Virus record (IMG/VR): IMGVR_UViG_3300045135_002424
Location: 1-34,983 of that record
Length of the DNA stretch: 34,983 nt
Strand: one strand, 5' to 3'
Source: a virus
The notes below the pieces were generated by a model that was given only the letters and a program-made list of their open reading frames with translations, ran no database searches and had not been told where the DNA came from. Of the stretch, positions 4,456 through 34,967 are shown one piece after another. The stretch's first letter is position 1; each line of letters starts with the position of its first letter. The translations under genes and the position numbers were made by a program.

Positions 4456-4489
4456 AGAAAGGGGACCCGTAATTGGATCCCCCTTTTTT
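4456..4489. terminator. convergent (bidirectional) rho-independent terminator
   Basis: On the plus strand, AAAGGGGACC and GGATCCCC pair with one bulge around a short AT-rich loop, followed by six T residues (4484-4489), giving a good intrinsic terminator for the reductase transcript. On the minus strand the same stem is followed by a weaker TTTCTT tract. It lies between the nrdA stop (4438) and the stop of the leftward gene (4488), exactly where the two transcription units converge. Confidence 0.75.
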
Positions 4490-5021
4490 ATTTCTTTCTG
4501 CTATTCTTTATCCAAGACGCAGCAGCTCGCCCTAGCATAAGCCCAGCTCCTATTGCACTTGCTTTTTCAACAGGATGTAGGTCTTTCCATGTCCTGTCAT
4601 CATTGCCAGCAAATGGATTGCTATTTAAATTACCACTGCTTGTGTTAGTTTGAAAATCAACAGATAAATTACCGGTTGGTTTATTAACCTTTTTAGTATT
4701 ATTGCTGCTGTTCACTTTCATGCTAGCATTGGTTTTAGTTTGCTTTGCTGGAGAATTCTTTTTAAGCTCAGACCTATCGTACTTAGACACTCTACCTTTT
4801 GCTTTTCTTTCCGCTTTCGCTGCTGCTAAATCAGCAGGGCTAAGCTCAGAATAAGTTTTAGGTGTATCCTTGCTTATTTTCTTTGTAGGTCTAAAAGTAC
4901 CGCTATCACCTTTGCTGTATTCTTCTTTACCCTCAGGTGTCTTCCACTCTTCTTTAAACCATCGTTTAAGAGCTAAGCCTTCTTTGGTCTTTCGAACTTT
5001 TTTGAAAGGTGACTTATACAT
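4488..5021 (-). CDS. basic protein with a conserved WFKEEW / RPTKK-TPKT domain, unknown function
   Basis: This 177-residue, strongly basic protein starts MYKSPFKKVRK. Residues about 15-60 carry KRWFKEEW, FRPTKKISKDTPKT and SELSPAD. This resembles a domain of unknown function that I remember from phages and giant viruses, usually with extra Cys residues that are missing here. The middle (80-140) is rich in Asn, Ser, Thr and Lys and looks disordered. The C-terminus (about 148-172) is a Gly/Ala-rich hydrophobic segment (AIGAGLMLGRAAASWIKNS) that may insert in a membrane. It is the last gene of the leftward unit, coupled to the preceding gene by TAATG. It shares an SP-x-K motif with its neighbours. 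No function can be assigned. Confidence 0.7.
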   Translation of the reverse strand: MYKSPFKKVRKTKEGLALKRWFKEEWKTPEGKEEYSKGDSGTFRPTKKISKDTPKTYSELSPADLAAAKAERKAKGRVSKYDRSELKKNSPAKQTKTNASMKVNSSNNTKKVNKPTGNLSVDFQTNTSSGNLNSNPFAGNDDRTWKDLHPVEKASAIGAGLMLGRAAASWIKNSRKK

Positions 5022-5221
5022 TACTTTTTAGATTTATTTCCCCAATTAGCCGCACCAACCTTGCGACATTTAGCGATAGCTCCGCTAGCGTACGCCGAAG
5101 GGAATACGTCATAGCGGGCTTTCACTTTATTGTAACACGCGTCTTTTGCTTTTAATGGACTACCGCATCCTGCTTTTAAAGGACTCCCAAGGCGTTGTGG
5201 TCCACAACCCTTGTAAGCCAT
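5021..5221 (-). CDS. small Cys/Lys-rich protein with the RYDVFPSAYASG-CRK-GAANWG domain
   Basis: This 66-residue protein is nearly all one conserved motif: CYNKVKARYDVFPSAYASG (residues 28-46) followed by AKCRKVGAANWG. I recognise this pattern from phages and from eukaryotic giant viruses, where it is a domain of unknown function; this is memory, not a search. The N-terminus holds two direct copies of GSPLKA (residues 12-26) and four Cys residues that might bind metal. Start and stop both overlap neighbouring genes by one base (TAATG), so the three basic genes 4488-6210 are translationally coupled. High charge and small size suit a DNA- or virion-associated protein, but that is inference. Confidence 0.75.
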   Translation of the reverse strand: MAYKGCGPQRLGSPLKAGCGSPLKAKDACYNKVKARYDVFPSAYASGAIAKCRKVGAANWGNKSKK

Positions 5222-6210
5222 TATCCTCTTAGCTTAGCTGCTTTAGCCTCTAGGCGATCAGCACGTTTTTCTTTGCGAGTAGGTTTAGCCGCTTTAGCCG
5301 CTTGTCTGTTAGCTTTCTTATCTAAGCGTGCAAGTCTAGCGTCTGCAATAGCACCTTTGATACGGCCTTTACCAATTCGCTTAGTAGTTTTAGTAGTTGT
5401 AGTACCGTCCTTCTTAGTCTTGGTTACCGCACGGGTGTTCTTGTCTTTAACAACAGTCTTTTTAACGCCAGTCGCTTTGTTAACTGTTTCTTTCTTAGTG
5501 GTACCGCCTTTGTTTGCGCCACCACCAGTTTTAGTCTTAACCGAGCTGATGTTGTTGTTCTGCTTGATAGTTACTGAATCTTTACTGCCTTTGTTGCCCT
5601 TAGGTTTAGCAGGCGCAGACGGCGCCGACGGCGTAGTTTTAACAAGCTCAGGTTTCTTTGGTGTAGATACCGAAACTGTTTTCTTTTTAATGTTCATAGG
5701 CTCCTCAACGCGGTAGCGTTTGCTGCTGCCCATTTTTGCGTTGATTTGGTTCTGAACTTTATTGTACTCAGCGGTTCCTTTTTTCAAACCTTTGCGCTGG
5801 CTAACCAAGCTGTTCAATTCTTTATCCCATTTAACACCACCTGATTTAGACGCAGGAGCATTAGCTTTAGGTGCAGGTGCAAATTTTTCCATTGATGCAA
5901 CGTCACTTGGTTTTTTACCTGGCGCGTAAACGCGCTGTGACGGATCTAGTGTATTGCTCATTGCCTCTCCAGCAGATGGTGCTTTGCTTGGAGATGGAGC
6001 AGATGCTTGCGATCCACCCATGCCTTCAATCTCAGAAGAAAATGGTGGAGGATATGCAGGTACGTTTTCATTCACGCCCGGCCCATATTCTTTTTTAGCC
6101 GGTGATTCTGGCGCAGCCTTGATCGCATCTTGCAATGGACGAGGCAGCCTGTGTTGGTTGCCTACTAGCGCTTTTGCAATAGGCGATTTTGGATTCTGTT
6201 TGTAAGCCAT
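5221..6210 (-). CDS. long low-complexity basic protein, possibly DNA-binding or virion-associated
   Basis: This 329-residue protein has no recognisable fold. Residues 1-45 contain KSPIAKA and ESPAKKEYG, copies of the SP-x-K-type motif shared with other small proteins of this phage. Residues 45-200 are Pro/Ala/Ser-rich. Residues about 200-280 are Thr/Lys repeats (KKTVVKDK, GTTTTKTTKR), and the last 55 residues are an Ala/Lys/Arg helix (RQAAKAAK, RKEKRADRLEAKAAKLRG) reminiscent of histone H1 tails. It follows the amidase and starts a string of three coupled genes. Its leader is ATTAATTAATTAATC with no Shine-Dalgarno site. DNA condensation or packaging as virion cargo is plausible but unproven; a long opposite-strand frame is an artefact of its base composition. 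Confidence 0.7.
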   Translation of the reverse strand: MAYKQNPKSPIAKALVGNQHRLPRPLQDAIKAAPESPAKKEYGPGVNENVPAYPPPFSSEIEGMGGSQASAPSPSKAPSAGEAMSNTLDPSQRVYAPGKKPSDVASMEKFAPAPKANAPASKSGGVKWDKELNSLVSQRKGLKKGTAEYNKVQNQINAKMGSSKRYRVEEPMNIKKKTVSVSTPKKPELVKTTPSAPSAPAKPKGNKGSKDSVTIKQNNNISSVKTKTGGGANKGGTTKKETVNKATGVKKTVVKDKNTRAVTKTKKDGTTTTKTTKRIGKGRIKGAIADARLARLDKKANRQAAKAAKPTRKEKRADRLEAKAAKLRG

Positions 6211-7339: not shown

Positions 7340-10300
7340 TTATTTATTAAACAGTTCATTAATTAAATCTTCTTCGTCGGTAGTCTTTTTGTTTTCTTTA
7401 TTTTTGCGTCTAGTCTCTTTCGCTTTCTCTATACCTTCTTTTTTACGCTTTTCTTTACCGGCCGCTTTGATTGCATCACCCTCCTCATCAATAGCGCCAA
7501 CATCCCAAGTCTTCCAGCCCAACGCTAATGCTATACGCTGCCATGCCGAATTACGAGCATCCATTGCTTCGCCTATAGAATTTAATTCGTCAATAACACG
7601 ATCAAGTGGAACGTTAAGTGTACCTGATACAAGGCTTCCGCCGATTGACCACCCTGGCCCAAAGTCTGGACGACCATTAGTTGCTACATCAAATGGCCGC
7701 GCTTCTAGCTGATCTTTTTCAAACTTGTATGTTTGTATTGCCGAGTATATCTTTCTTAGCTTAGAGTTAATAGGTGGAGAAATACTAGTAGCCGCAATAA
7801 CAGTATAAGCATGGTCAGCTAAGAAGCCTTTTTCGTCTTGCTTCATGAACTCGTCTATAACATTTTTAACTGTAGATATTATAGCACCGTACATTCCACT
7901 ACCGCGCAATATTGTATCTAACATGCTATCCAGTACTCGCGCAACCTTAGCTTCCTCTTTAGCTGCATCTTTTTCCTCGTCATCGTCATCAAACCCTGGG
8001 ATCAATGCAAACAATGCACTTTGTAAGGCAGAGAAAATGAAGTTTTGCACAAACCCGTAATATGCAATCTTGCTTACGTTTGTTTTCCAATCCCCGCGAC
8101 CATTTATAAGGTCAAGACCGGCTTTTTTCATCAAACGAGTGTATTGCATAGGCGTGTTAGCAAAAGCAAACACCAAACGTCCTAAAACGCTTCTTTGTTG
8201 CTGTGATACAAGAGCTGGATCAGATGACTGCTGTGCTTCATCAGAAATCTTTGTAAAGTCTAGCCATGCTTTTTCCTCTGCCTGTTCTTTGCTTAGCCCT
8301 TTCTTTAAATAGCTGTTTACCCTATTGCGATAGAATGAAGCACCACCTGTGGCAATTGCAAAGCTATCCGCAATTTGAGTAGGTAAGAAACCTATCTTTA
8401 GCAAATATGCCAATACAGCACGAGGGTCACCTTTACTTCTGTTCGCGGCTTGTGCAAGTTCAGATTCACTAACATCTGTTTTCAACCCCGATCTACGTTC
8501 TTTAAGTTTATCCGAGTTAAATATCATTGCCCAGTCTGACCAAAATTGCTTTTGATTAGCAAACGCCGCTGCGGCCTTTATAGGGTTGTTATCCGACCAA
8601 TTAATAAAGTTTGTTGTAGAAAGCATCTGCAACAACGCTGAACGGCGGTTAAAGAACATGATAGCACCCGTAGAGCCGTTAATCCAGTTAATAAACTTGT
8701 TAACTGTTGCGTTGCTTCCGCTTACACGGTTTGTACCGTTTTTCATAGAATACAAAGCGTCTTCTATTGCCTCACGATGTGCTCTACCTTTAATAGCCTC
8801 AATCTTGTTGAGATTGTCTTCGGTAAAAATAGCATCTGCGTTTTCAATAAACTCTTGCAAGAACTTTTTACGACCAATTTTTTCAGTCATGCTGTTCAAG
8901 TCTGAAAGCACAGTCTGTGTTTGCCAGTATTCACCTGGCTCCATCCATTCGTCTCTTCTTGCTACTACAAGTAAAGAATCGGCGAACGCAACCATTTCCG
9001 GATTTTGCTTAATCGCATCTAATAATAGTTTTTTATCTCTTTTAGAAATACCGGGTACAGGCGTGCCTTGTCTGTCCCAAAGGTAAACACGTAGTGCCTG
9101 GTCGTATGTAAAGCCTGAATCACCAATCTTTTTATCAAGCATCTTATATTGATCCTTGAATATTTTGATTGTTGCTTTATAGTCTCTTTTAATTTGTTGG
9201 CGTACACGGTTAATAGCCTCAACACCTTTGAAGTAAGGGTTCATTAACTTGTCTTCAAACCATGCCATATCAGCATCACCTTGCTTACCTTTACCAGAGA
9301 AAGCATAATGTACCAAACCTCTAAAATCATCAGCACCAGGCGGAACAAAGAATTTAAATCTACCCTTCATCGCACCTCTGATCTCAGCTTGTACTTTAGA
9401 GAACACTTTAAACGATGCAACCCCTGAGCTTCCTTCTAGTATTTCGTTGAATTTAGCGCTTAGCCCTTTGCTGTATCTAGCCGGCCCTGTTTCAAGGTCT
9501 TTGTAAAGCTTATCTAAGAATGGCTTGGGCAATTCTTCACCCATTTTAAGCTCGTTCGTATTAAGCTCGTAGAATTTATCGCCAAACTCTTGCTTGTATA
9601 ATTTAGCGCTTTCTTGTACCGCGTCCCACGTGCGCTCTACAATCATATCCGGCAGTGCTCTTTCTAACCTAGCTTTGTTTCTAGCTATTGCTTCTGCTTT
9701 AGAAGTATTAGCAAATACAATTGAAACCTCGTAGCCGGCTTTGCGCAGGGCATTGATTTTTTTCATTGTAGCGTTATATGAAGCGCCGGTTCCGTCTACA
9801 ACCATGCTTTCACGGTTGGTCATATACTTTTCCATTTTCGCTTCCGCGGCTTTGCGGGCCGCCGCACCTAGCTTAGCTCTCATCGAGCGCTGCTCTTTAG
9901 TGTATTGCTGCTCATTTGCGGGTAAGCCAGCTTGTTCCTTCATTGGTTCTAATGCCAAATCTTGGTTTACAACCTTAAAGCCTCTTCGTCCTAACTTAAG
10001 CCCTTTTCCTACATTTGTTTTGCCAGCCCCTGGTCCGCCAACCATGAATACTGCTCTTGGCACAGATCTAGAAAACTTAGCACTACCCGTGTCTTCCATT
10101 TGAAGCATTAAATCAAGTGCGGCATTATCAGTAGCCATATTGCTAAATTCAGCCCATTTTTCACCGTATATAGTGCCTTTGTTTTCGCCACCAATTTTTT
10201 CCAATGCATACATGTTGTTCATGCCAAAGGTTGTAATATTAAAGTAACGAGACGGCGACATGTCAACGGTAGGGTCAAACTTAAGTGGCATTGTAGATTG

Positions 10301-13300
10301 AAACTGCAAATTAACGTTTGCGTCCATGTCTGTTGGTATAATAGCTACCGAGTAAGCATCTCTTAACGCGTTTAGGTCAACCTTAGATTTTTTATTCCAA
10401 AAGTGATTGGTCAACTGCAACATTATATAGTTAGTCGGTATAATGTGCTCATATCTTACCTCAGCATTTGTTTTGCCAACAAAATAGTATTCTACGTTTG
10501 CGGCAGCTTTAAGAAGACTAGCCATGTTGCTGTCAAGACTCTTCATTGTTGCCACCCACAATACAGGATTATTTTGAGCGCGCACAAAAGCTAAAAAGTC
10601 TGTTAGCGTTGCCCAAGCTTCCTGAGCCTGCTCTTTTCTTTCATCATATTCGTTGGCAAAATCCTCTTTAGTTTTTGGAACTTTTTTGCCATTAACGGTT
10701 TTATATGCTTTTTGCGTAGGTGGTGATTTAAACTCAACAAGCTCACCTTTATAAAACACTTTTGTGCCTTGGACTGTAACCCCTGGTATTAAAGCAATAT
10801 TATTTTGGTAATAATCTGTTTTATTAGCATAGTATTGTCCCCTTCCCTTGCCGATTTTAGTAGAAGTATAATTATGACCTCCCATCCATTTAAGGATTTT
10901 AACAAGACCAGCGGCACCTTCTTTTTCTACTAGCTGAGCGTTATACTCAAGCTCGACAGCTCTTCTTTCTTTTTGGATACTTTCAATATCCATCATAGCC
11001 TTAAAGCTGCCAAATATATCCTCTAATACAAGTCCAACCTCGGCAAGCAGGTTAGTTGAAGTCTCAGCCTGCTCGATACCGTTAACAACAAAGTTAGTAA
11101 AGTCAACAGCTCCAATTTGATCAGCTTTATCAATAAACTTAGCTACATGCTTGTGACCGTCTTTAGCTATTTTTCTCAACTGATCTTCGGTTAAAGATGT
11201 ATCGTTGTTATCTATGTATACTTTTATTAGCGCATTGCGCAAACGAGCTTCTGTTACACTTCCGTTGTTTCGCAGCATTGTTAACAGCTCTTCTTGATGC
11301 TTACGCAGCTGCTGTGCCTGCGCGGCTGTCATAGAGTATTTAACATTACCGCGCTCAATGTCTCTTGCTACTTCAGTTACATAGTTTGCCGCAAGCTCAA
11401 CGCCAAGTAGGTCTTGACGCATTTCATATGCTTTGCGGATTTCACTATTCTCGTCTTTAAGAGCTTCATTGATAATATCGAATGATATTTCTTCGGCCAT
11501 TGCTTTAGCTAAAGACTCTTTTCTACCGCGTATTAGCGAACCATCTTCGTTAAAGAAGTTTGACAAGAAGTCAGCATCGGACATTCTTGTGGCTGCATTA
11601 GGCATACGGCGCACAAGTTCAGCACCTGATGTTCTACCGGCGTTGTCCGTAGATACGCTTTCGCGATCGATTTTTTTGCCTTTCCAGTTGCTAGTCCACT
11701 GTCCATCTACTTTTTTCTGAACAGCGTTAGGCATTGCGGTCATCAACCATGTGGTGGTCATGTTCTCTAATATTGCAGCCTTATTCCTTAATAAGAATTT
11801 ACGCAATTGCCCATCTTTCAAACCGCCCATTTCTTTTTTCAAATCAATGTCAGCTTGCTTACCCATGGTCTTACGCAGCTCAGCAATATATGGCTTTACA
11901 GTAACATTCTTAGATACCGATTCGTCCATGCGCTTTTTCATTACACGCACGGTTGATAATACTTTCTTTTGAACGTTTTCTAAAGTTTCTTTACTTAGTA
12001 CACGACGTTGTATTAGGTTTTTATATGTAGGCGCCTCTTTCTTAGACTCGGTAGGAGCTTGATCAAACTCTTGTGTTTCTGTAGTTTCTTTTTCAAGTAC
12101 CTCAAGCGCATTTGTTGAAAGCTGATTAAGGTACATTGGAGAAGCACTATTTCTGTCTTTCTTAAGTACATCTAGAATGGTAAACCTAACAAGACCGTTA
12201 ATATAGCCATATAAGGTTCCCTTGCCGTTCCAGGGGCTCTTTCTTAATCTTTCTAACGTACCAACAAGCACCTCAGAAATAAAGTCCATTTTGGAGTCCG
12301 AATCGAATCTAGCAGCAAGGTTGTTTACTTGTGCTTCAATAATGCCGTAAAGCTCGCCTTCAACCATGCGGTTTCCAATTGCTTGCTCCGGTGTTAACTT
12401 GCCAAACGCTTCTTTTATTTTATCAAGTCTAGCTACAGATCTACTTTTTCTTTTTCTGTTATCCGGCTCGTTATCTTCTTCATAAGCTTTACCAAATAGG
12501 TTTAAAAGCTCAGATGTTTTAGCACCTCTATTTCGATTAGCATATCTAGCTATGAAAGCATATGTTTGTCGCCCGTCTTTAAGGCTTAGTCTGTCAGTCT
12601 TAGATGCTCTATTAAAAAGATCGTTAAAGAAAGTTTTCAAGCGCATCATGGTGGGCATGTCTAATTTACCACCTTCCGAAATATAGTCGGACAATGCGTT
12701 CATCGCCTCTTCGTAATAAGCCCCATCACCTTGATACGAGGTTTCCAGCCTAGCCATTACATAAGCGTGTGCTTCAGGAGAGTTTTGCTCCATCCATTCA
12801 AGAAGCTTTTTTCCCGCGGCGTTTTCATTACCCTTGCCTAATCTATTTGTAGATATAGCGTGCAACAGCTCATGTGAGTATACACCGATTCGACCGTTCA
12901 ATGCAGCCGCATCGGCGTTTACATATATTTTGCCGTTAACATATTGAGCCTCGCTTTCTTTGCCAAATTTAGCGGTATATTCAGCATCTGTCATTTCTAC
13001 AAAAGAAATGTTCATGCCCATTGCCTTAGCTAATTCCTGGGCACTTTTTTTGTCTTTCGCTATTTGGTTCGTGTTTTCCGATGCGTAAAACTGTATGGCG
13101 GCTTCATTTTCAATAGCTTCCTTAGTAAGCTCCGCGCCGCGCTGTTCTAGTACTGCCGCTGCCTTTTTCTTGTAATTATTTTTTGCAACTTCGCTCAGGT
13201 TTTTAAATCTACGTGCAGAATTAATAAATTTAGCATCCGCTTGATTTTGCAACATAACCTCTAAAGCTGCTCTTCCTGCAAAACCAACTTGTGTAGCTGC

Positions 13301-15709
13301 ATTTTGTAATATAGGATCAGCACCCCGCATATTGCCGCCTATAATAGCGTCTCTTTCTTCAGCAAGCTTATTAAATTCAGCTTCCATTTCTTTTATAGCG
13401 GCCATCATACCCGCTCCTTGCGCACGTCCAGAGCGAGCGGCCTTCATTAGGCGCTCGTTAAGGCGGCGCATGCGCACATTTCTTTTGCCAATTTCAATAG
13501 CATCCTCCGCAGTAAGGGTAGATCCAACTCTACCGACCGCTGCCATTTTAGCAAAATCAGCCTCAGACTGTATTTCCTCAACAAGCGTTGCTACCTCCTG
13601 CGTCATTGGCATTTGGTTTAGCCTTGGATCAAATATATTGTTAAGGTCTTTAAGGCCGGTAAGCTCCTGCAGTTTTTTAACTTTATTTGCGTAGTCTCTT
13701 TGCTCTTTAGCGGTCATTAGCTCAAACGCCATCATATCATAAGCCGCCGGGGCAGAACCTTTTATTTCCATCGCACCCCCTACAAGCGCACCGCCGTATA
13801 TAGCTTCGCCTACACCTTCAAAAATATTATTGTTTTCTCCTAGTATAAGGTTTTTAGAAACATTGTTAACAAATTCTGTAGCTCCTTCAGAAAGACCTTC
13901 TTGAACCATTGACTTACCTATAGCAACATGTATTTTAGGCTTTAATGGGTTAACTGCTCTATTTACACCTTTAACAATAAAGTATTTTGAAGCTCCTTCA
14001 AATGCTACCTCGGCAATGCCCGATACAACTTGTCTTCCAAGTTTTTGAGAATCCGTTAAATTTAAAATTCTTTCTTGGTCTTTAATTTCCTCCTTTAAAA
14101 GCGAAAGAGAATAAGGGTCTAACTCGTCCTCGCCACTTTCGTGTTTTTCTAATCTTAACAAATTAGCCTCAAGCCCTTTTGCAGCGTAGTAGTCGTTCTT
14201 TAAGTTTTCTATTCGAGCACCCCCGTAGCCGCTTGCAAAAAACAAAGGCATCGCCGCCGCCCCTGTATATGCCATTGCCACCGATGGCGCAGCTTGTACA
14301 ACAGTCCTAGCTGCAAAATTAGTAAAGTCTCCAATGCTGTTAAAGGACTGGTCCATGGTAGGACCCTGAGCTAGCATTTCTCTAGCTATATCTGTTTCTA
14401 TAGAGCGTTCTAAAAGCTTTTGATCGTGTCTTTCACCTACATACGCTGCCAATGCTTTTCTTTGGTCTGGAGTAAGACTAGATAATACCCCGCCAACACC
14501 CTGTAGACCCATTCCTTGCCCACTCTCTATTGAAGAAACTACAACGTCGCCTATAAAGCCTTCTAGGCTATTAATAGTCTCTCGACCAGCTACACCTAAC
14601 AAACCAAGCAAAGAATAATCTTTGTTAAAATCTTTAATAGCCGCTAATAAATCCTTTGTTTGCTTTGAGTCAACGGATTCTATAAAGTCTTCAAATTCGT
14701 CTTTGGTTGTATTGTATTCTAGTATCCTGGCTTGTATTGCATCGTAACCCTCTTGTGTTGGATTTATTTTAAAAGCTTCAATTTGATTATTAATATCGTC
14801 AACCATAGCGTTAATTGAAGCCGCTTCTTTTTCAGAATTTTTTATTCTGTAATCAAGCTCAGCACCTTTTTTACTTACGAGCGCTTTAACTATTTCTTGC
14901 TGCTCACCGTCAAGACTTGTTACGTAATTTTCACCAGCTAAATTAAGGTCTGCAGCCTGTCTTTCTAATCTTTGCGTTTCAATTTCTTCATCTGTTGGTG
15001 CAAAAACGCCTGTTTCTTTCCACTCCTCGTATTTTTGACGAAAATAATCGCCGCGTTTGTCTAAAAGATCTTCCGCATTAAGCTTGGCTTTTCCAGGGCC
15101 GTCTTGTAGTTCCTCTATTCTTTGGAACTCTTTTAATGTGTTGCTTGTATAATCCTCTTCCCAGGTATCTTCATCAATTCTAACAGCATCTCTAGCGTTG
15201 TAATATCCCTGTAATACCTCTGTGTTTTCAGCCTCCATCTGATTAGCATAGTTCAGATCACCATTTTCAGTAATGAAGTCATTAAACATTTTTAATGCAT
15301 TATCTCTAAAGCTTTTTGAACCTATAAAAGATCCGGTTCTTTTTCCGCTTTTTGATCGTAAATCAATCGCGTCTAACCCTGGGAATGCTTCGTCAATTTC
15401 AATACCGATAGCAGCCATTCTAGACTGCAAGCGAGCTTTTACTTCTTCTTCGCTTCCTTCTAGATCTTCTGGCGTTAAAAGATACGCTTCAATTCCGGGT
15501 GACCCCAAAGAAGTACCGCCCGAACTGGATTCCCCAGCGGGCGTTTGGTTTGAGCTCGCCGATGGGGTCGTTCCCGCCGAGCCGTTCTGCTTTCCCTCTT
15601 TAAGAGTAAAGCCGTTATTTTTAGCAAGCTCTTCAACCGAAATGCCTTCGATTTCGGCCCATTCTTGCATATATTGCAAGCTAAAATCTTCAGTACCGTC
15701 AGTGTACAT
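7340..15709 (-). CDS. giant polyvalent ejection protein with metalloprotease motif and zeta-toxin-like kinase domain
   Basis: At 2789 residues, this is almost a quarter of the window. Features in order: a Ser/Gly-rich linker (about 43-70); helical, partly hydrophobic regions (about 370-690), including a possible membrane segment near 465-500; HELLH (946-950), the zinc site of gluzincin proteases, with acidic residues downstream; a helical segment at about 1128-1186 resembling sigma-factor region 2; and MVGGPGAGKT (1889-1898), a Walker A followed by a zeta-toxin-like domain to about 2000 (NQD, VVDGTG, LRKAGYEV, RNKARLERALP). Near 2550-2580 a hydrophobic stretch ends in DDDDEE, and the C-terminus is basic. 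Giant multi-domain phage proteins of this kind are thought to be carried in the virion and injected. It directly follows two probable internal virion proteins, which supports this. Domain activities are inferred from motifs. Confidence 0.85.
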   Translation of the reverse strand: MYTDGTEDFSLQYMQEWAEIEGISVEELAKNNGFTLKEGKQNGSAGTTPSASSNQTPAGESSSGGTSLGSPGIEAYLLTPEDLEGSEEEVKARLQSRMAAIGIEIDEAFPGLDAIDLRSKSGKRTGSFIGSKSFRDNALKMFNDFITENGDLNYANQMEAENTEVLQGYYNARDAVRIDEDTWEEDYTSNTLKEFQRIEELQDGPGKAKLNAEDLLDKRGDYFRQKYEEWKETGVFAPTDEEIETQRLERQAADLNLAGENYVTSLDGEQQEIVKALVSKKGAELDYRIKNSEKEAASINAMVDDINNQIEAFKINPTQEGYDAIQARILEYNTTKDEFEDFIESVDSKQTKDLLAAIKDFNKDYSLLGLLGVAGRETINSLEGFIGDVVVSSIESGQGMGLQGVGGVLSSLTPDQRKALAAYVGERHDQKLLERSIETDIAREMLAQGPTMDQSFNSIGDFTNFAARTVVQAAPSVAMAYTGAAAMPLFFASGYGGARIENLKNDYYAAKGLEANLLRLEKHESGEDELDPYSLSLLKEEIKDQERILNLTDSQKLGRQVVSGIAEVAFEGASKYFIVKGVNRAVNPLKPKIHVAIGKSMVQEGLSEGATEFVNNVSKNLILGENNNIFEGVGEAIYGGALVGGAMEIKGSAPAAYDMMAFELMTAKEQRDYANKVKKLQELTGLKDLNNIFDPRLNQMPMTQEVATLVEEIQSEADFAKMAAVGRVGSTLTAEDAIEIGKRNVRMRRLNERLMKAARSGRAQGAGMMAAIKEMEAEFNKLAEERDAIIGGNMRGADPILQNAATQVGFAGRAALEVMLQNQADAKFINSARRFKNLSEVAKNNYKKKAAAVLEQRGAELTKEAIENEAAIQFYASENTNQIAKDKKSAQELAKAMGMNISFVEMTDAEYTAKFGKESEAQYVNGKIYVNADAAALNGRIGVYSHELLHAISTNRLGKGNENAAGKKLLEWMEQNSPEAHAYVMARLETSYQGDGAYYEEAMNALSDYISEGGKLDMPTMMRLKTFFNDLFNRASKTDRLSLKDGRQTYAFIARYANRNRGAKTSELLNLFGKAYEEDNEPDNRKRKSRSVARLDKIKEAFGKLTPEQAIGNRMVEGELYGIIEAQVNNLAARFDSDSKMDFISEVLVGTLERLRKSPWNGKGTLYGYINGLVRFTILDVLKKDRNSASPMYLNQLSTNALEVLEKETTETQEFDQAPTESKKEAPTYKNLIQRRVLSKETLENVQKKVLSTVRVMKKRMDESVSKNVTVKPYIAELRKTMGKQADIDLKKEMGGLKDGQLRKFLLRNKAAILENMTTTWLMTAMPNAVQKKVDGQWTSNWKGKKIDRESVSTDNAGRTSGAELVRRMPNAATRMSDADFLSNFFNEDGSLIRGRKESLAKAMAEEISFDIINEALKDENSEIRKAYEMRQDLLGVELAANYVTEVARDIERGNVKYSMTAAQAQQLRKHQEELLTMLRNNGSVTEARLRNALIKVYIDNNDTSLTEDQLRKIAKDGHKHVAKFIDKADQIGAVDFTNFVVNGIEQAETSTNLLAEVGLVLEDIFGSFKAMMDIESIQKERRAVELEYNAQLVEKEGAAGLVKILKWMGGHNYTSTKIGKGRGQYYANKTDYYQNNIALIPGVTVQGTKVFYKGELVEFKSPPTQKAYKTVNGKKVPKTKEDFANEYDERKEQAQEAWATLTDFLAFVRAQNNPVLWVATMKSLDSNMASLLKAAANVEYYFVGKTNAEVRYEHIIPTNYIMLQLTNHFWNKKSKVDLNALRDAYSVAIIPTDMDANVNLQFQSTMPLKFDPTVDMSPSRYFNITTFGMNNMYALEKIGGENKGTIYGEKWAEFSNMATDNAALDLMLQMEDTGSAKFSRSVPRAVFMVGGPGAGKTNVGKGLKLGRRGFKVVNQDLALEPMKEQAGLPANEQQYTKEQRSMRAKLGAAARKAAEAKMEKYMTNRESMVVDGTGASYNATMKKINALRKAGYEVSIVFANTSKAEAIARNKARLERALPDMIVERTWDAVQESAKLYKQEFGDKFYELNTNELKMGEELPKPFLDKLYKDLETGPARYSKGLSAKFNEILEGSSGVASFKVFSKVQAEIRGAMKGRFKFFVPPGADDFRGLVHYAFSGKGKQGDADMAWFEDKLMNPYFKGVEAINRVRQQIKRDYKATIKIFKDQYKMLDKKIGDSGFTYDQALRVYLWDRQGTPVPGISKRDKKLLLDAIKQNPEMVAFADSLLVVARRDEWMEPGEYWQTQTVLSDLNSMTEKIGRKKFLQEFIENADAIFTEDNLNKIEAIKGRAHREAIEDALYSMKNGTNRVSGSNATVNKFINWINGSTGAIMFFNRRSALLQMLSTTNFINWSDNNPIKAAAAFANQKQFWSDWAMIFNSDKLKERRSGLKTDVSESELAQAANRSKGDPRAVLAYLLKIGFLPTQIADSFAIATGGASFYRNRVNSYLKKGLSKEQAEEKAWLDFTKISDEAQQSSDPALVSQQQRSVLGRLVFAFANTPMQYTRLMKKAGLDLINGRGDWKTNVSKIAYYGFVQNFIFSALQSALFALIPGFDDDDEEKDAAKEEAKVARVLDSMLDTILRGSGMYGAIISTVKNVIDEFMKQDEKGFLADHAYTVIAATSISPPINSKLRKIYSAIQTYKFEKDQLEARPFDVATNGRPDFGPGWSIGGSLVSGTLNVPLDRVIDELNSIGEAMDARNSAWQRIALALGWKTWDVGAIDEEGDAIKAAGKEKRKKEGIEKAKETRRKNKENKKTTDEEDLINELFNK

Positions 15710-24736: not shown

Positions 24737-26155
24737 CTATGCTTGAGTTTTCTTCAACAATACGAAGTTGTTAGCAGCTTGAACACAAAGTGCGCGCTCA
24801 GAAAGGAAGTGTACGTTCATTTCATCAGCGTCGCTTGTGTAGTTACCACCTACAGAACCAGTCACCCAAGACTTCATGCGGCGATCTTCTGCTTCAGAAG
24901 CGCGGTAACGCACGTGCAAGAATGGACGAGAAATGTTCTGACCCAACACTTGGTCGTATACTGTAGAAGTACCTGCAGGAACAATAACACCCTCGATGTC
25001 AGCAATGCTACCACGAGTTGTAGAGTCGTTCAAGTATTTCCAGTCAGTTTTGTAGAAGTCGTAAGAACCGCGGCGGAAACCAGAGAATCCTAGGTTCAAA
25101 GCCATATCTTCAGAGTTTTCAAACACACCGTAAGATGTACCGCCGCTACCGTAGTTGTTAGCGCGTGCAAGCATGTTATCAACATCCAAAGCAGTGCGAC
25201 GATCCAAGAACATCATGTTCTCTTCGATAGCACCTTGCTTATCCAATTCCTGAAGGATAACGTCAAAGTCACCCAAACCAGTCAAACCGGTAGTGTTGTT
25301 AAAGTCTTGGTCGTTAAATACCAAACCGCGAGACTCTAGAGCGGCAAACAAACCTTCAGATCCTTCAATCTTAGCAGTGTTACCAAATCCAGAACCTTGG
25401 TTGATAGTGGTTACAGCTTTTTCAGCTTCAACCATGCTCATTTCCAAGTAGTCTTCGAAACGTAGACGAGACTCGTGCTCAGACTTCAAGTACCACAAGT
25501 ATCCAGAAGTACCAGCTTCAGTAGTTACTTCAACCCAACCGATTTGAGCAACATCAGAACCTTTCACGTTGTACTTGTCGCGCAAGATGATTGGTTTGTT
25601 GTCAAAAGTTGTGAAAGAAGCATCGATAGAATTACCAGCACCGCTTGATCCTTTAGTGTACTCAGAACCGTAAACGAATAGTTTAGCGTCAGTAGCTGAA
25701 TCGAAAGAATCGTCCAAGTTACCATCTGCAGTGTCGTAAACAGCGATGTTTACAGTTTGACCAGATACAGAAGTAACGTATGCTTTGTGTGTAACGTATC
25801 CTTTAGATACCACCAAAGTCATACCTGCGCCAATCAAGTGGCCAGAAGGCAAAGTAAGTGCATCACCATCAGCATCAACAGTTACGTTGTCGTATGCGAT
25901 GTGTAGACGTCCTTGCTCTTGCCATACCACGCGGTCAGAAGCCATAGGCATTTCTGCACCAACCATGCGCAAGAATCCAGAGATAGTACGGTTACCGAAG
26001 CGCTCAACTTCTTTTTCGTATACCTCAGGAAGGAATTGTTGTGTAAAGTCCATGTCAGCCACAGACAAATAGTTGTCACCAAACAAGCCCTTAACAGGAC
26101 GTGGAGTTAGGTGAGCTAAGTTAGCCAAAGTACTTGGCGACGTTGCAAAACTCAT
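24737..26155 (-). CDS. major capsid protein
   Basis: This 472-residue protein has a moderately acidic, evenly mixed composition. It starts MSFATSPSTLANLAHL and continues LPEVYEKEVERFGNRTISG, FLRMVGAEMPMASDRVVWQE and GRLHIAYDNVTV. This N-terminal pattern (YEKE-ERFGNRT, SGFLRMV-AEMP, W-EQGRLHIAY) is one I remember for major capsid proteins of marine podovirus-like phages. The remainder has the beta-hinge and spine-helix look of an HK97 fold (EHESRLRFEDYLEMSMVEAE, MMFLDRRTALDVDNML). Placement right after an acidic scaffold gene and before the connector genes supports it strongly. Its codons look more C-rich and regular than those of its neighbours (many aac, ttc, tac, gaa), as expected of a highly expressed gene. 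Confidence 0.85.
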   Translation of the reverse strand: MSFATSPSTLANLAHLTPRPVKGLFGDNYLSVADMDFTQQFLPEVYEKEVERFGNRTISGFLRMVGAEMPMASDRVVWQEQGRLHIAYDNVTVDADGDALTLPSGHLIGAGMTLVVSKGYVTHKAYVTSVSGQTVNIAVYDTADGNLDDSFDSATDAKLFVYGSEYTKGSSGAGNSIDASFTTFDNKPIILRDKYNVKGSDVAQIGWVEVTTEAGTSGYLWYLKSEHESRLRFEDYLEMSMVEAEKAVTTINQGSGFGNTAKIEGSEGLFAALESRGLVFNDQDFNNTTGLTGLGDFDVILQELDKQGAIEENMMFLDRRTALDVDNMLARANNYGSGGTSYGVFENSEDMALNLGFSGFRRGSYDFYKTDWKYLNDSTTRGSIADIEGVIVPAGTSTVYDQVLGQNISRPFLHVRYRASEAEDRRMKSWVTGSVGGNYTSDADEMNVHFLSERALCVQAANNFVLLKKTQA

Positions 26156-26177: not shown

Positions 26178-27353
26178 TTATTTTTTAAACTTAACCTTGA
26201 GTTTAGAAGTGCTTTCACCGTCGTTTACCGCTCTGATGGTCCACCCGTTTGCAGTCGTAACTTTCTCATGAGTCCCTCTCGGATTCATATTGACGTTCTT
26301 CGTGCGAGCCATACTGTCTTTCATTGCATCGGCTTTGCCTTGCTCATAAAAGTGTTGAGCGACTTGGTCGGCGTTCATGGCGGTGAACAATGATTTGTGG
26401 TAACCTTTAGCGTCTGACATTTCATTATTTTCGTTCAAGAACTTCTTGACAAAGTTATTAATGTCGCTTTGGGTACTTTTAACCTGCTCAGCGTCTTTAA
26501 CTTTAAAACGATAGGTTTTGTCTCCGACTTTGTAATCAAACCCTTGAAAACTTTTATCGAATACTTTATCGCTTTCCATTTTAAAACGCTTTGCTTGACG
26601 TTCAGCCATGGCAGCAGTTTCTGCACTCTCTTTATTATAGCGATTAAAAAATTCAATCGCTTTTTGCTGTTCGGGGTTCAAGCGAGAACCCGCTTTAATT
26701 TCTTCGTAATATTTAGACTTCATGCCCTCAAGGTGGCTTTGCGCATTTGCAAGCGCTTGTTTTCGCTCAACCTTTTTACGGCGGATTTCACGTTCGTCGT
26801 CAATGTCCTCTTCGTAAGAAAACTTGTCTTCAAGCATGAAATCAATATCCTCTTTGTCTAAATGTGGATTAGTAGCCTGATAGTATTCGCGAAGTAGCTG
26901 GTCTTCGTTTAGCTGACTATAATCCGTGTTAAGGCGTACATAGTCTTCTAGCGTGCCGCCTGTGTCATTCATAAAGTCCACAACTTTTTGAATGTTTTCT
27001 GGAAGGTCGACACCTGATTGTGCTGCTTCTTCTACAGCTTCCGCTACTTCATCTTGTAGCTGCTCTGTAGCCTGCTCAACTTGCTCTTCGGTAATTTCCT
27101 GTAATACAGGTTCTTCTACCTCTTGTACTTCTGCAATGGGCTGTTCATCTTGAACGGGGATTTCTTCTCCGGCAGATTCTGTAACTGGCTCTTCGACGTT
27201 TTCGACTGGTACTTCTTCGCTAACTGCGGGTTCGTCGCGTACAGGAACCTCATCTGCGCTTTGCTCTTGAACGGCATTTGCTCTTAGGTCTACTTTAATA
27301 GTTCCATCATCACCCGTTGATACAGGTGATGTGTCCTTAGTTTCTTCACTCAT
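26178..27353 (-). CDS. scaffolding protein (acidic, coiled-coil)
   Basis: This 391-residue protein has an N-terminal 110 residues dominated by Glu, Val, Pro and Gln (EEVPVENVEEPVTESAGEE, EEVEQATEQLQDEVAEAVEEA), probably disordered. The middle is charged and helical (about 140-290: YEEDIDDEREIRRKKVERK, NPEQQKAIEFFNRYNKESA). The C-terminus is basic (STSKLKVKFKK). An acidic helical rod with a basic capsid-binding tail, encoded between portal and major capsid protein, is the classic pattern of a phage scaffolding protein, which directs shell assembly and then leaves. No Ser-protease motif is visible, so it is not an obvious self-cleaving scaffold. Confidence 0.8.
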   Translation of the reverse strand: MSEETKDTSPVSTGDDGTIKVDLRANAVQEQSADEVPVRDEPAVSEEVPVENVEEPVTESAGEEIPVQDEQPIAEVQEVEEPVLQEITEEQVEQATEQLQDEVAEAVEEAAQSGVDLPENIQKVVDFMNDTGGTLEDYVRLNTDYSQLNEDQLLREYYQATNPHLDKEDIDFMLEDKFSYEEDIDDEREIRRKKVERKQALANAQSHLEGMKSKYYEEIKAGSRLNPEQQKAIEFFNRYNKESAETAAMAERQAKRFKMESDKVFDKSFQGFDYKVGDKTYRFKVKDAEQVKSTQSDINNFVKKFLNENNEMSDAKGYHKSLFTAMNADQVAQHFYEQGKADAMKDSMARTKNVNMNPRGTHEKVTTANGWTIRAVNDGESTSKLKVKFKK

Positions 27354-32030: not shown

Positions 32031-32308
32031 TATCTAGATCTTTTTTCAGCAAAACCAGAAAAAGTTTGCTTTTCTTCTTCTTGCTTTGGTTTGTTTTCAA
32101 GTATGCGCTCCTCTTCTTCGATGCGCGTTAGGATTTCAAAAGCGTCAAATATTGCCAGCTTCTTTGTAGCTGCGGCGTTTTTCAAACGGTCAGCAGACAC
32201 ATCATCTTCTGTATTAGTGATGATTTTTTCTTCGGCAACTTTTATAAGTTCCTCAACTGCTTTGCGACCAGCTTGGATTATACTCTTTTTCGTTTCCTTG
32301 GTATTCAT
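32030..32308 (-). CDS. probable small terminase subunit
   Basis: This 92-residue helical, charged protein begins MNTKETKKSIIQAGRKAVEE. It continues with DRLKNAAATKKLAIFDAFEI and LTRIEEEERILENKP, then a polar tail. The gene directly precedes TerL and is coupled to it by TAATG, the usual place of the DNA-recognising small subunit. The long two-helix coiled part would serve oligomerisation, but no clear helix-turn-helix is visible. The open frame continues upstream to a TTG at 32359; ATG 32308 is preferred because it is the first ATG. Even so, the gene overlaps the GroES-like gene by 56 bases. A non-terminase TerL partner is the alternative. Confidence 0.6.
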   Translation of the reverse strand: MNTKETKKSIIQAGRKAVEELIKVAEEKIITNTEDDVSADRLKNAAATKKLAIFDAFEILTRIEEEERILENKPKQEEEKQTFSGFAEKRSR

Positions 32309-32843
32309 ACTTGATTGTAATTCGATTAGCGGGTACTCTATAAAGCTTTTCCCCTTCAATATTAAATTCGTATTCCGTACCAGGCGTAAACCCTATTAAG
32401 TCTCCGGCTTCAAAGTCTCCGTAAGCATATTTGATTTTACCTATCAAAGGCCTTTCAGTATGCTCAGAAAACATGCGTTCGTCCATTAACGGTTTAACAA
32501 ACACAAAACCTGCCACAGGTTTCCATTTGCCATTCCTTTTGAAAGCATATATTTGGTCCGGATAAACAAAGAATAAATCTTCGTCGTAATAAGAGCGGCT
32601 ATTTTTTTCGTTGCCACGTATATCTCTAAATCTTCTAAACACATTATGGTGCACAATTATTTCATCACCAGTTTGCAAAGATAGATCGTTAACTTTTGGT
32701 ACGGCTTTGACAACGCCGTGTCTGCTGGTATAAAGATGGTTTTGTAATTCTGTATTCAACAGTAGCGTTGTACCGTCTATATCTTTTTCCGCCGTTGTTC
32801 TTTTAGCAAACGGAGAAACAATAAAGTTGTATATGCTTTGCAT
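32253..32843 (-). CDS. tandem GroES-like protein, putative phage co-chaperonin
   Basis: This 196-residue protein reads as two GroES-type beta folds in a row. The first (about 5-103) has HGVVKAVP, LQTGDEIIVHH and LFFVYPDQIYAFKRNG. The second (about 112-181) has GFVFVKPL, RPLIGKIKYA, EAGDLIGFTPG and LYRVPANRITIKYE. Each follows the GroES order of V-KP/KR strand, G-V-AV strand, GD-V-F strand, then the closing strand that ends near I-AI. GroES is about 97 residues, so this is twice the length. Co-chaperonins cap GroEL and help fold large capsid proteins, as T4 gp31 does. No GroEL gene is in the window, so host GroEL would be the partner. A GTG lies two codons upstream, but ATG 32843 forms a TAATG overlap with the previous gene. 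Call is from fold pattern only. Confidence 0.5.
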   Translation of the reverse strand: MQSIYNFIVSPFAKRTTAEKDIDGTTLLLNTELQNHLYTSRHGVVKAVPKVNDLSLQTGDEIIVHHNVFRRFRDIRGNEKNSRSYYDEDLFFVYPDQIYAFKRNGKWKPVAGFVFVKPLMDERMFSEHTERPLIGKIKYAYGDFEAGDLIGFTPGTEYEFNIEGEKLYRVPANRITIKYEYQGNEKEYNPSWSQSS

Positions 32844-33061
32844 TACCACTTAAGATCATATTCAATAGAAACAGCCATGTTCTTATTAAAGTCTTTCCAT
32901 GGCATTACCAAATCGCCTTTTTGAATATAGATAGAGTACTTATCTTCCTCTTCTATAATGTTAACTATAGTATGACCGCCATACACTTCCTGTCCAACAG
33001 AATAGTGCATGGCGTCATTTTTATAGTCCTTCCCAATACTAATTTTGCGAATTATCTGCAT
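32843..33061 (-). CDS. small conserved-looking phage protein, unknown function
   Basis: This 72-residue protein begins MQIIRKISIGKDYKNDAMHY. It has a compact beta-rich look: VGQEVYGGHTIVNIIEE, DKYSIYIQKGDLVMPWKDFN, then VSIEYDLKW. I remember short phage proteins with this IRKISIG-DYK-AMHY start in marine phages near head genes, without a function. Its stop overlaps the GroES-like start (TAATG), and its start overlaps the upstream gene by 23 bases. The repeated strand-turn-strand pattern would suit a small beta-barrel, but that is speculation. Confidence 0.6.
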   Translation of the reverse strand: MQIIRKISIGKDYKNDAMHYSVGQEVYGGHTIVNIIEEEDKYSIYIQKGDLVMPWKDFNKNMAVSIEYDLKW

Positions 33062-33322: not shown

Positions 33323-33637
33323 TTAACAGTTCCACCTGCGACGCGCCGCTCGACCTCTTTCGCTGGTCCAGCCTTTAGAACGCGCGCAAAATGATTTTCT
33401 TCTTTTCCAAGCCTTACTACCTTTCTTTAATTTAGAAGGGTCTTTAGTAACAGCTGTTTTTAATTTGCTGCCTGGATTATCTCTTTTATATTTGTCAACA
33501 CCCTTCTGCGACATACCACCACCGGCATCAGCACCGGTGCCTGTAGGCTTAGCTTCATTATAGTAGCCTAAAGACTTTTTATGAGAAGGCGCATCGCCTT
33601 TCTTTTTAAACGGAGAGTTATGTTGTACGTAAGGCAT
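33323..33637 (-). CDS. small basic protein with FCARSKGWTSERG-ARRRWNC motif
   Basis: This 104-residue, highly basic protein starts MPYVQHNSPFKKKGDAPSHK. It contains GVDKYKRDNPGSKLKTAV, then KRRKSFCARSKGW and RAARRRWNC. The last 60 residues match a pattern I know from many marine phages and that I believe has been given a domain-of-unknown-function number (DUF6321-like); not verified. It has two Cys residues in the C-terminal half and an SPFKKKG motif near the start, like other small proteins at the far end of this unit. Charge suggests nucleic-acid or virion association. Confidence 0.65.
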   Translation of the reverse strand: MPYVQHNSPFKKKGDAPSHKKSLGYYNEAKPTGTGADAGGGMSQKGVDKYKRDNPGSKLKTAVTKDPSKLKKGSKAWKRRKSFCARSKGWTSERGRAARRRWNC

Positions 33638-33638
33638 A

Positions 33639-34967
33639 TTATTTATTTTTAAAGTAACCCTTTTTCATTGGGGTACGCTGCTTAATACCTATGTTTTGTT
33701 CATAGCGCATTTGAGTCGGCGCCATTGGCGGGCGATTTTCGCGCGTTGGAGTTCCGTCAACTAAAGGCGCGCTTGTTCTATTGTAAGAAGCCCGATCAGC
33801 AGTACCTGTATTTGCTTGAATGTTTGCGGCTGTATTTTTATTGTCAGCTGCAATTTTTGCATTTTTTTGATCAGTCAATGCTTCGCTAAGATCACTAAGC
33901 TCTTGCGCACTCATGCCGGTACCACCTACACCTTTGTAATTAGATTTTTTAACGTTTGTAGGCTTTAGCGCCGGTGCGGTAGATTCTTTAATGTCTAAAG
34001 ACGCTGTTTTACGCGGAGCATTCATTATTTCCTGCCCCTCCTTCATTTCCGCACGAGTTGCTTTACGCTCGGCGCGTTTTGCTTTTGCGTTATCAACCGT
34101 ATTTTGCAAACGGTCGCGCCATGTTTTCTTAGCTTGTGGTGCATCCCCGGCTTTACTTACACCTGAACCTGCATCCGCAATTGAAGCGGAACTAGTGTTG
34201 CTCTTTGCAGCAAGTTCACCTTTTGCCGCTTTTTCACCCATTTCCAAAGCTTTAAATTGGTTCATGGTTGACTGGCTAGCGCCGGCTAAATTTCCATATT
34301 TATCAAAGGTAGGGCGCATAAGAGCTTTGTCGGAAGTAGGCGCATCCATTTCCATATCATAGGTGCTTGTTACTTCCGGTGCACTTGTTGGTAAAGTAAA
34401 CTGCTCGGTTGTTCCAGCGGTTTTTCCTGGCTCAACTTTCCCCGGCATACTTGAAGTATTTCCGCCAGATGTAGTCGTTGATGTTGTGCCGTTGTCGTAC
34501 GTGGTTGTTTCGGTAACGGTAGTCTTAGGCTTATACTTATAATTTGGATTGTAACCTTGATGTCTGCCTATAACCTCTTGTCCGCGTTGTGTGCTTGCAT
34601 CAGCGTCGGTCATTTCTCTTGCGGTTCCTAAAAATTGCTCACCGCGAGTAATGCCCTTGTTAAACTGGTTCTGCTGCATGTCAGAGCTGTACGAACGGTT
34701 TTGATCTTCGTTTAAGCCTCTTGAAGTATTGTACAAGCGCTCTTGTGTTTCATTCTGAAAGCTTTTGCCAGTCATAATGTCGCGCTTAGCTTTGCGGCCG
34801 CCCATAAAGCCATCGCCCGCCTGGCGAGCATCACGAGCAGCCTCTCTTGCTTGGCGACGCAAATCGCGCTTAGCCTCATTACGCACAAAGCGCTCACTCT
34901 GACGAGCAGTACGCATGTTAAAGCGATTTTCCCACGGTGTAATGCCAGTATATTTATCCTGGATCAT
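33639..34967 (-). CDS. low-complexity basic protein, probably 5' truncated by the window edge
   Basis: This 442-residue product, from the ATG at 34967, has no recognised domain. The first 60 residues are Arg/Ala-rich helix (NEAKRDLRRQAREAARDARQ). The middle is Thr/Ser/Gly-rich (TTTYDNGTTSTTTSGGN), then comes a basic helix (KTWRDRLQNTVDNAKAKRAE). The C-terminus ends KQRTPMKKGYFKNK, close to the SP-x-K motif of other proteins here. The ATG has no ribosome site and the frame stays open to the window edge (the last codons read EEYTP before the Met), so the real start probably lies outside. Composition resembles the 329-residue protein at the other end of the unit. Virion or DNA association is a guess. 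Confidence 0.55.
   Translation of the reverse strand: MIQDKYTGITPWENRFNMRTARQSERFVRNEAKRDLRRQAREAARDARQAGDGFMGGRKAKRDIMTGKSFQNETQERLYNTSRGLNEDQNRSYSSDMQQNQFNKGITRGEQFLGTAREMTDADASTQRGQEVIGRHQGYNPNYKYKPKTTVTETTTYDNGTTSTTTSGGNTSSMPGKVEPGKTAGTTEQFTLPTSAPEVTSTYDMEMDAPTSDKALMRPTFDKYGNLAGASQSTMNQFKALEMGEKAAKGELAAKSNTSSASIADAGSGVSKAGDAPQAKKTWRDRLQNTVDNAKAKRAERKATRAEMKEGQEIMNAPRKTASLDIKESTAPALKPTNVKKSNYKGVGGTGMSAQELSDLSEALTDQKNAKIAADNKNTAANIQANTGTADRASYNRTSAPLVDGTPTRENRPPMAPTQMRYEQNIGIKQRTPMKKGYFKNK

Follow-up and report, generated by a model that had tools for sequence, protein, structure and literature searches.

The cargo-loading peptide of encapsulins is short and terminal and is recognised inside an HK97-fold shell. 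The SPKK motif of histone H1 and sperm histones needs a basic residue after SP. It is written as SPK(K/R) in the account given by PMC9903204. In bacteriophage T4, the capsid-targeting sequence (CTS) comprises about 10 N-terminal residues that are common to the different small internal proteins IPI-IPIII and that also load foreign proteins, and ten N-terminal residues of IPIII are described as sufficient for head loading (PMC9026906).

Here we describe a tag of the form SP-[F/L/A/M/I]-(x)-K in small basic late proteins encoded by a window of 34,983 bases, which is the whole of one IMG/VR virus record (G000) and most likely itself a fragment, and by its relatives. Like the T4 CTS, the tag consists in its longer form of about 10 residues common to otherwise different proteins (13 families, 38 distinct proteins). 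Unlike the CTS, it has a different sequence, occurs also at C-termini and between modules and is only a putative packaging signal, and no protease that might remove it was noticed among the window proteins scanned. Encapsulins differ in that the present carriers belong to phages with scaffold, portal and DNA. With the histone SPKK motif the tag shares the S-P start, lysine-rich surroundings and repeats in basic proteins, but its third residue is hydrophobic or Ala, K/R being avoided there, and it is lineage-restricted. We show that the tag is genuine, moves between unrelated proteins, marks late proteins only and is confined to one phage lineage; on balance it probably serves as a lineage-specific docking address on a head-assembly protein, its carriers being enclosed with the DNA, which they would condense, and/or being ejected.

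The Motif in the Window

The late genes of the window lie on the minus strand, from 34967 to 4488, and the early genes, among them what we take to be those for both ribonucleotide reductase subunits, lie on the plus strand; judged from their strand, the tagged genes are presumably expressed late. The window MCP is 44-50% identical to those of the Flavobacterium elemo phages, Maribacter phage Panino and Manatee Spring ctfjg026 and 37% identical to that of Cellulophaga phage phi40:1, and the in-frame stop seen in many MCP matches is the normal terminal stop (three records checked). At the position homologous to that of the acidic scaffold-position protein of the window (Table 1), phi40:1 encodes gp092, which was detected by MS. 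Where the window encodes the 2789-aa late protein, phi40:1 has giant virion proteins that were detected by MS and elemo has a structural protein.

Table 1. Window features named in the text, with motifs (residue number in brackets) and the bases that encode the tags.
Feature	Position	Strand	Motif (residue)	Tag bases	Remarks
177-aa basic protein	4488-5021	-	SPFKK (4); SPAKQ (90)	4998-5012	MYKSPFKK tag, DUF5872-type WF..EEW domain, NSPAKQ at 90
66-aa protein	5021-5221	-	SPLKA (13, 21)	5174-5185, 5150-5161	two GSPLK tags, then KDACYNKVKARYDVFPSAYASG..CRK module
329-aa basic protein	5221-6210	-	SPIAK (9); SPAKK (36)	6172-6186, 6091-6105	MAYKQNPKSPIAK tag and ..APESPAKK ending the LP..L...I..AP module
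2789-aa late protein	7340-15709	-
MCP	24737-26155
Acidic scaffold-position protein, 391 aa, pI 4.6	26178-27353	-			between portal and MCP
53-aa KSKAQ mini-protein	27116-27277	-	SPFKMNSPLQ (C-terminus)	27149-27160, 27128-27142	+1 frame of scaffold gene; C-terminal KKSPFKMNSPLQK tag
GroES-like protein	32253-32849	-	SPFAKR (12)		motif probably due to chance
104-aa basic protein	33323-33637	-	SPFKKKG (8)	33602-33616	MPYVQHNSPFKKKG tag and DUF6321
442-aa basic protein	33639-34967	-	TPMKKG (432)	33660-33674	C-terminal TPMKKGYFKNK, relaxed tag form

An earlier note on this sequence had claimed that short SP-x-K elements recur in basic proteins at both ends of the late unit, and every instance that it named was located (Table 1). 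It did not list SPAKQ of the 177-aa protein or the C-terminal motif of the 53-aa ORF, which is nested in the scaffold gene; the phenomenon is bigger than that account. The comparison with shuffled proteins that the note had proposed (28 own gene calls, 1000 within-protein shuffles) found SP-[hydrophobic/A]-(x)-K strongly enriched: SP[FLIM].{0,1}[KRQ] was observed 8 times versus a shuffle mean of 1.4, and 7 times versus 0.55 in window proteins of up to 450 aa, numbers reached in 0 of 1000 shuffles in both cases. The loose form [ST]P-x-K is enriched only weakly, with 17 occurrences of [ST]P.{1,2}K versus a mean of 7.7, which was reached in 3 of 1000 shuffles. Two instances were rejected as conserved tags. 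The GroES-like SPFAKR is probably a chance match, since 3 of 150 family members have the motif within their first 20 residues, and SPLTK of a 228-aa protein, where 31 of 85 family members match the motif, looks like unremarkable sequence within a folded structural protein.

Restriction to Late Proteins and to One Lineage

The comparison covered ten related contigs (46-69 kb), the genes of which were called by our own hexamer-based script. Within the first 30 residues of proteins of up to 400 aa, the tag motif was found in 26 of 285 late proteins versus 0 of 296 early proteins (p = 5e-9); 1000 shuffles of the late set gave a mean of 1.2 and a maximum of 5, and five permuted motifs gave 0-1 late and 0-2 early matches in the same contigs. 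Because the ten relatives have common ancestry, such p-values are optimistic and the count per family is safer: with the window included, the motif is present in 12 of 87 late families versus none of 117 early families (p = 2e-5), or in 11 late families once the unconserved GroES-like match is dropped. At the level of plain permutation the lead is small, SP[FLIM]K occurring in 16 of 208 families, KSP[FLIM] in 14 and the other permutations in 3-12, so that the case rests on the N-terminal position, the contrast between late and early proteins and the lineage restriction.

The last of these was revealed by the tag alone. DNA patterns for MA[FY]KMxSP[FL]K (pattern A) and for a variant with K/Q at position 5 were scanned over 2.9 million viral contigs, which yielded 38 stretches with pattern A and 4 with the variant. 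These 42 loci encode 38 distinct proteins, which form 13 families after removal of the first 10 residues. Position 7 is S in 31 of the trapped proteins, T in 1 and R in 6, as the pattern permits, the six with R having NRPLK or KRPLK in place of SP. Among the 41 tag records tested, MCP was found in 37, terminase in 39 and either in all 41, the four without MCP having terminase and the two without terminase having MCP; the 42nd record, G002, has MCP. The tag shares its strand with MCP/TerL in each of the 38 pattern-A records. The permuted control MA[FY]KMxPS[FL]K found a single stretch in the same contigs, of 23 codons and within a longer frame, and the true tag had one match, of 18 codons, in 84,980 bacterial genomes. 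Chance as the sole origin of the tag is ruled out by the shuffles, the permutations and the permuted-tag scan. The tag has been adopted by one marine tailed phage lineage that is related to flavobacterial podoviruses; no SP-tag start on small basic proteins was found in the phi40:1, Panino, elemo, ctfjg026 and phi18:3 regions. Its confinement to one lineage suggests that its partner is lineage-specific. Literature searches for SPFKK, MAFKM and SPLKK as words and for DUF6321 found no paper, and DUF5872 was found in one paper, as a table row.

A late-only, lineage-specific distribution would be predicted equally well if the tag directed late proteins to another lineage-specific target outside the virion, for example the transcription machinery of the phage or the nucleoid or envelope of the host, and a putative metallopeptidase-like protein (DUF6782-like, E = 0.015, below the cut-off) does have SP-[MA]-K/R near its end. 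Such a destination is unlikely, however, given that homologs of three tagged families are found in virions by MS and that one tagged gene is written within the scaffold gene, both of which are described below.

Conservation and Composition of the Tag

Within families the tag is kept to different degrees. SP[FL]xK is found near the N-terminus in 14 of 17 distinct orthologs of the 177-aa protein when L186 is counted, the 177-aa family or DUF5872 forms without it being L174, L178 and L180. In the 104-aa family SP[FLAV]xK precedes DUF6321 in 57 of 58 distinct orthologs, all but L166, and the residues that flank it vary. Relatives of the 329-aa protein have an equivalent start in variant wording (MAFKMNARSPLMK, MAFKMNPKSPLLK and MGSPFKMNPKTPLMK). 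The C-termini of four members of the 442-aa family read RTPMKKGYF, RTSMKKGYF, SSALKKGYF and ASPMKKGYF, and the 442-aa protein is the weakest case among those kept as tagged.

Shared tags could reflect descent, if a 5' coding cassette had been spread between genes by recombination and had since drifted without function, and in four trapped loci two adjacent tagged genes are indeed separated by only 169 bases. Orthologs nevertheless keep the tag in differing N-terminal surroundings (MKGSPFK, MNSPFK, MAYKQNSPFK and MYQSPLSK), and the tags of one genome are written in different synonymous codons, with TCT, TCG, AGT and TCA all used for Ser in the window. This variation in codons argues for selection at the protein level, and we regard a drifting cassette as very improbable.

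In late proteins of up to 200 aa, the residue directly after SP is A in 35, F in 16 and L in 13 of 103 cases (64 together versus about 17 expected) and K/R in 3 versus about 16 expected (K 2 and R 1 are among the residues tallied), while K follows the hydrophobic residue in 62 of 121 cases. The analogy to the SPKK motifs of histone H1, which the earlier note had drawn, is therefore not borne out: a histone SPKK reading calls for S/T-P-[K/R]-[K/R], and here the third residue avoids K/R. The same figures bear on the wider suggestion that the tag binds DNA or other nucleic acid, its SP turns and lysines clamping DNA as SPKK does and virion location simply following. While the basic nature of the carriers (pI 9.8-10.6 for the 177-, 66-, 329-, 104-, 442- and 53-aa proteins) and the frequent K after the hydrophobic residue would suit such a role, the third position favours A/F/L over K/R, the longer tag is found in one phage lineage only, as a general DNA binder need not be, and the same basic modules are untagged elsewhere (0 of 80, see below). 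We consider a nucleic-acid-binding tag decidedly unlikely.

Tagged Modules and Their Untagged Counterparts

The statement of the earlier note that the tagged proteins otherwise differ has to be qualified, since the 66- and 104-aa proteins and, with less certainty, the 177-aa protein are modules that co-occur in large proteins of other viruses. The 177-aa protein matches Pfam DUF5872 (E = 1e-12; 49.1 bits, above the cut-off of 27.5) over profile positions 43-114 of 116, and the 104-aa protein matches DUF6321 (E = 1.1e-10; 42.5 bits, above the cut-off of 28.5). The 66-aa protein matches modules of phrog_727, 38880 and 3477 and has no match in Pfam, and a trapped 66-type protein matches DUF5872 at positions 5-39 with 19.2 bits, under the cut-off of 27.5. 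DUF5872 may itself combine a 66-type module (5-39, below the cut-off) with the domain found in the 177-aa protein (43-114); the window counterparts of these two parts are adjacent genes. The 66-type module, CW..KKGMKKKGN..C, LWDNIHAKR and DUF6321 match separate segments of common PHROG profiles, namely 263-308, 316-345 and 356-430 of phrog_727, 3-36, 49-76 and 301-372 of phrog_28131 and 431-472, 755-780 and 855-928 of phrog_3477.

Modular basic proteins of cyanomyoviruses (phrog_727, 3477, 10346 and 28131; S-CREM2 gp137 and gp160; S-T4 AXQ70586) contain the same modules, which are fused and untagged there, whereas here they are separate small tagged proteins. In S-T4 and S-SSM7 the modules lie inside large proteins, in which DUF6321 is confirmed by Pfam and the DUF5872-like part is recognised by eye only. 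Judged by these profile matches, several tagged proteins are stand-alone versions of modules fused in large cyanophage proteins.

Among the best 80 matches of the 66-aa module, the SP-tag was found in the 22 residues upstream of the module in none. Seven of these 80 records have the MCP of this lineage, one at 36% identity only, and the lineage terminase is present in 3 of the first 40, but many of the records are short, so that a missing MCP says little. The untagged 66-type modules in lineage records indicate that the tag is not obligatory even within the lineage, and no tagged neighbour was seen beside them in the available flanks of the seven records. The phage collection contained no match to the 177-aa protein, to the metallopeptidase-like protein or to the 53-aa family, and NCBIfam gave none for six proteins. 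A structural model of DUF6321 (pTM 0.57) had a best E of 7 against PDB and that of DUF5872 was poor (pTM 0.18), so neither pointed to a function.

A second portable module, approximately [ST]P-x-x-K-x-L-x-G-x-Q-x-x-LP-x-x-L-x-x-x-I-x-x-AP-x-K, opens the proteins of the 329-aa family and closes those of the 442 type; it was found in the 329-aa protein of the window and in G003, G004, G007, G008, G009 and G012.

A Tagged Gene within the Scaffold Gene

The tagged 53-aa gene that is overprinted in the scaffold gene is new. It begins 76 bases after the scaffold gene start and is nested alike in 75 of 80 loci. The third-position entropy of 57 scaffold genes is 0.37 in the overlap versus 1.23 downstream (p = 8e-18), and such frozen wobble of the scaffold gene is what selection on the +1 frame would produce. 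The scaffold frame is acidic and the overprinted frame encodes a basic protein, which matches phrog_1375 (E = 4.6e-05). That two proteins here share the same DNA is well supported. The strict C-terminal tag is present in 23 of 67 distinct orthologs of the 53-aa protein, and most of the others have a degenerate tag, such as SAFKM, SALKM or SPTQFKM.

Virion Homologs and Proposed Function

Protein gp080 of phi40:1, annotated as structural from MS/MS, and its homologs in phi38:1 and Calle_1-3 have the core SGKDYDH..NRG in common with tagged 84-92-aa proteins; gp080 is homologous to these, with 43% identity to that of G006 in a six-row alignment, but unlike them has no SP-x-K tag. In the record of Synechococcus phage S-CREM2, the sole places matched by the 66-aa and 104-aa queries are gp160, which contains the 66-aa module, and gp137, which contains DUF6321. 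Both are in the virion proteome of 52 proteins, gp160 with 7 unique peptides and gp137 with 4 (PMC10665884, Table 3), in which, according to its authors, some non-structural proteins could be contaminants (PMC10665884); a virion proteome is reported for S-CREM1 as well. Three tagged families have virion homologs by MS in other phages, and these homologs are themselves untagged, so that in the lineages of phi40:1 and S-CREM2 virion location is tag-independent. Another small basic protein of phi40:1, gp069 (L004 744-1085; 113 aa, pI 10.9), is annotated from MS/MS and is likewise untagged.

The capsid-targeting role that the earlier note had suggested fits all of the measurements: the tag is late-only, lineage-specific and portable, its end is predicted to be disordered and its families have virion homologs. 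Late expression, the virion homologs and the overlap with the scaffold gene together indicate head assembly. In the model of the 104-aa protein residues 1-14 have pLDDT < 50, which may point to a docking motif rather than a fold. We infer docking, a partner, packaging of the tagged forms and a role as cargo, and propose that SP-[F/L/A/M/I]-(x)-K is probably an address tag that works like the T4 CTS. Its fullest N-terminal form is M-A-[F/Y]-K-[M/Q]-x-S-P-[F/L]-K, and in small basic late proteins it is placed either in a disordered end or in a linker that separates modules. The tag would dock its carriers, as the prohead forms, onto a head-assembly protein specific to the lineage, for which the 391-aa acidic scaffold-position protein is our first candidate and the inner MCP face our second. 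The tagged proteins would then be enclosed together with the DNA, and the enclosed cargo would help to condense the DNA and/or be ejected into the host.

The residues of the T4 internal proteins unite targeting and cleavage in the same 10 positions (PMC9026906), and the present tag might similarly be a processing site, conserved for cleavage, near whose SPF-K a head protease would cut to free the cargo. This is most improbable, as Pfam and PHROG scans of 9 and 10 window proteins, respectively, revealed no prohead protease and the tag is often at the extreme start or end of its carrier, where cleavage would free little.

A docking address of this kind may, more tentatively, form part of a plug-in cargo system, in which 10 residues at either end or between modules would load into the head any small module that acquires them, where cyanophages instead package modules by fusion, and in which one cargo, written inside the scaffold gene, would be co-made with the scaffold; we consider such a system possible. 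If the tag is a packaging address, virion-borne small proteins could be predicted from sequence alone in a group of ocean phages for which metagenomes are the main source, and widespread families without a function (DUF6321, DUF5872, phrog_727 and others) could be assigned to the virion and given a role open to testing. If it works at either end and on many modules, the tag could also provide a loading handle for laboratory phage particles.

Other Short Elements in Late Proteins

Another common start, [TKI]PIT-x-[RK], is found upstream of SP tags in several late proteins of G002, G004, G007-G009 and G012, examples being MNKPITSRV, MGKNIPITARV and MKATPITQKC. SPAKM repeats lie beside GIGPNKIG motifs in the proteins at 62092-62643 of G002, which had no match in the phage collection, and at 10529-10894 of G004 (late-strand coordinates).
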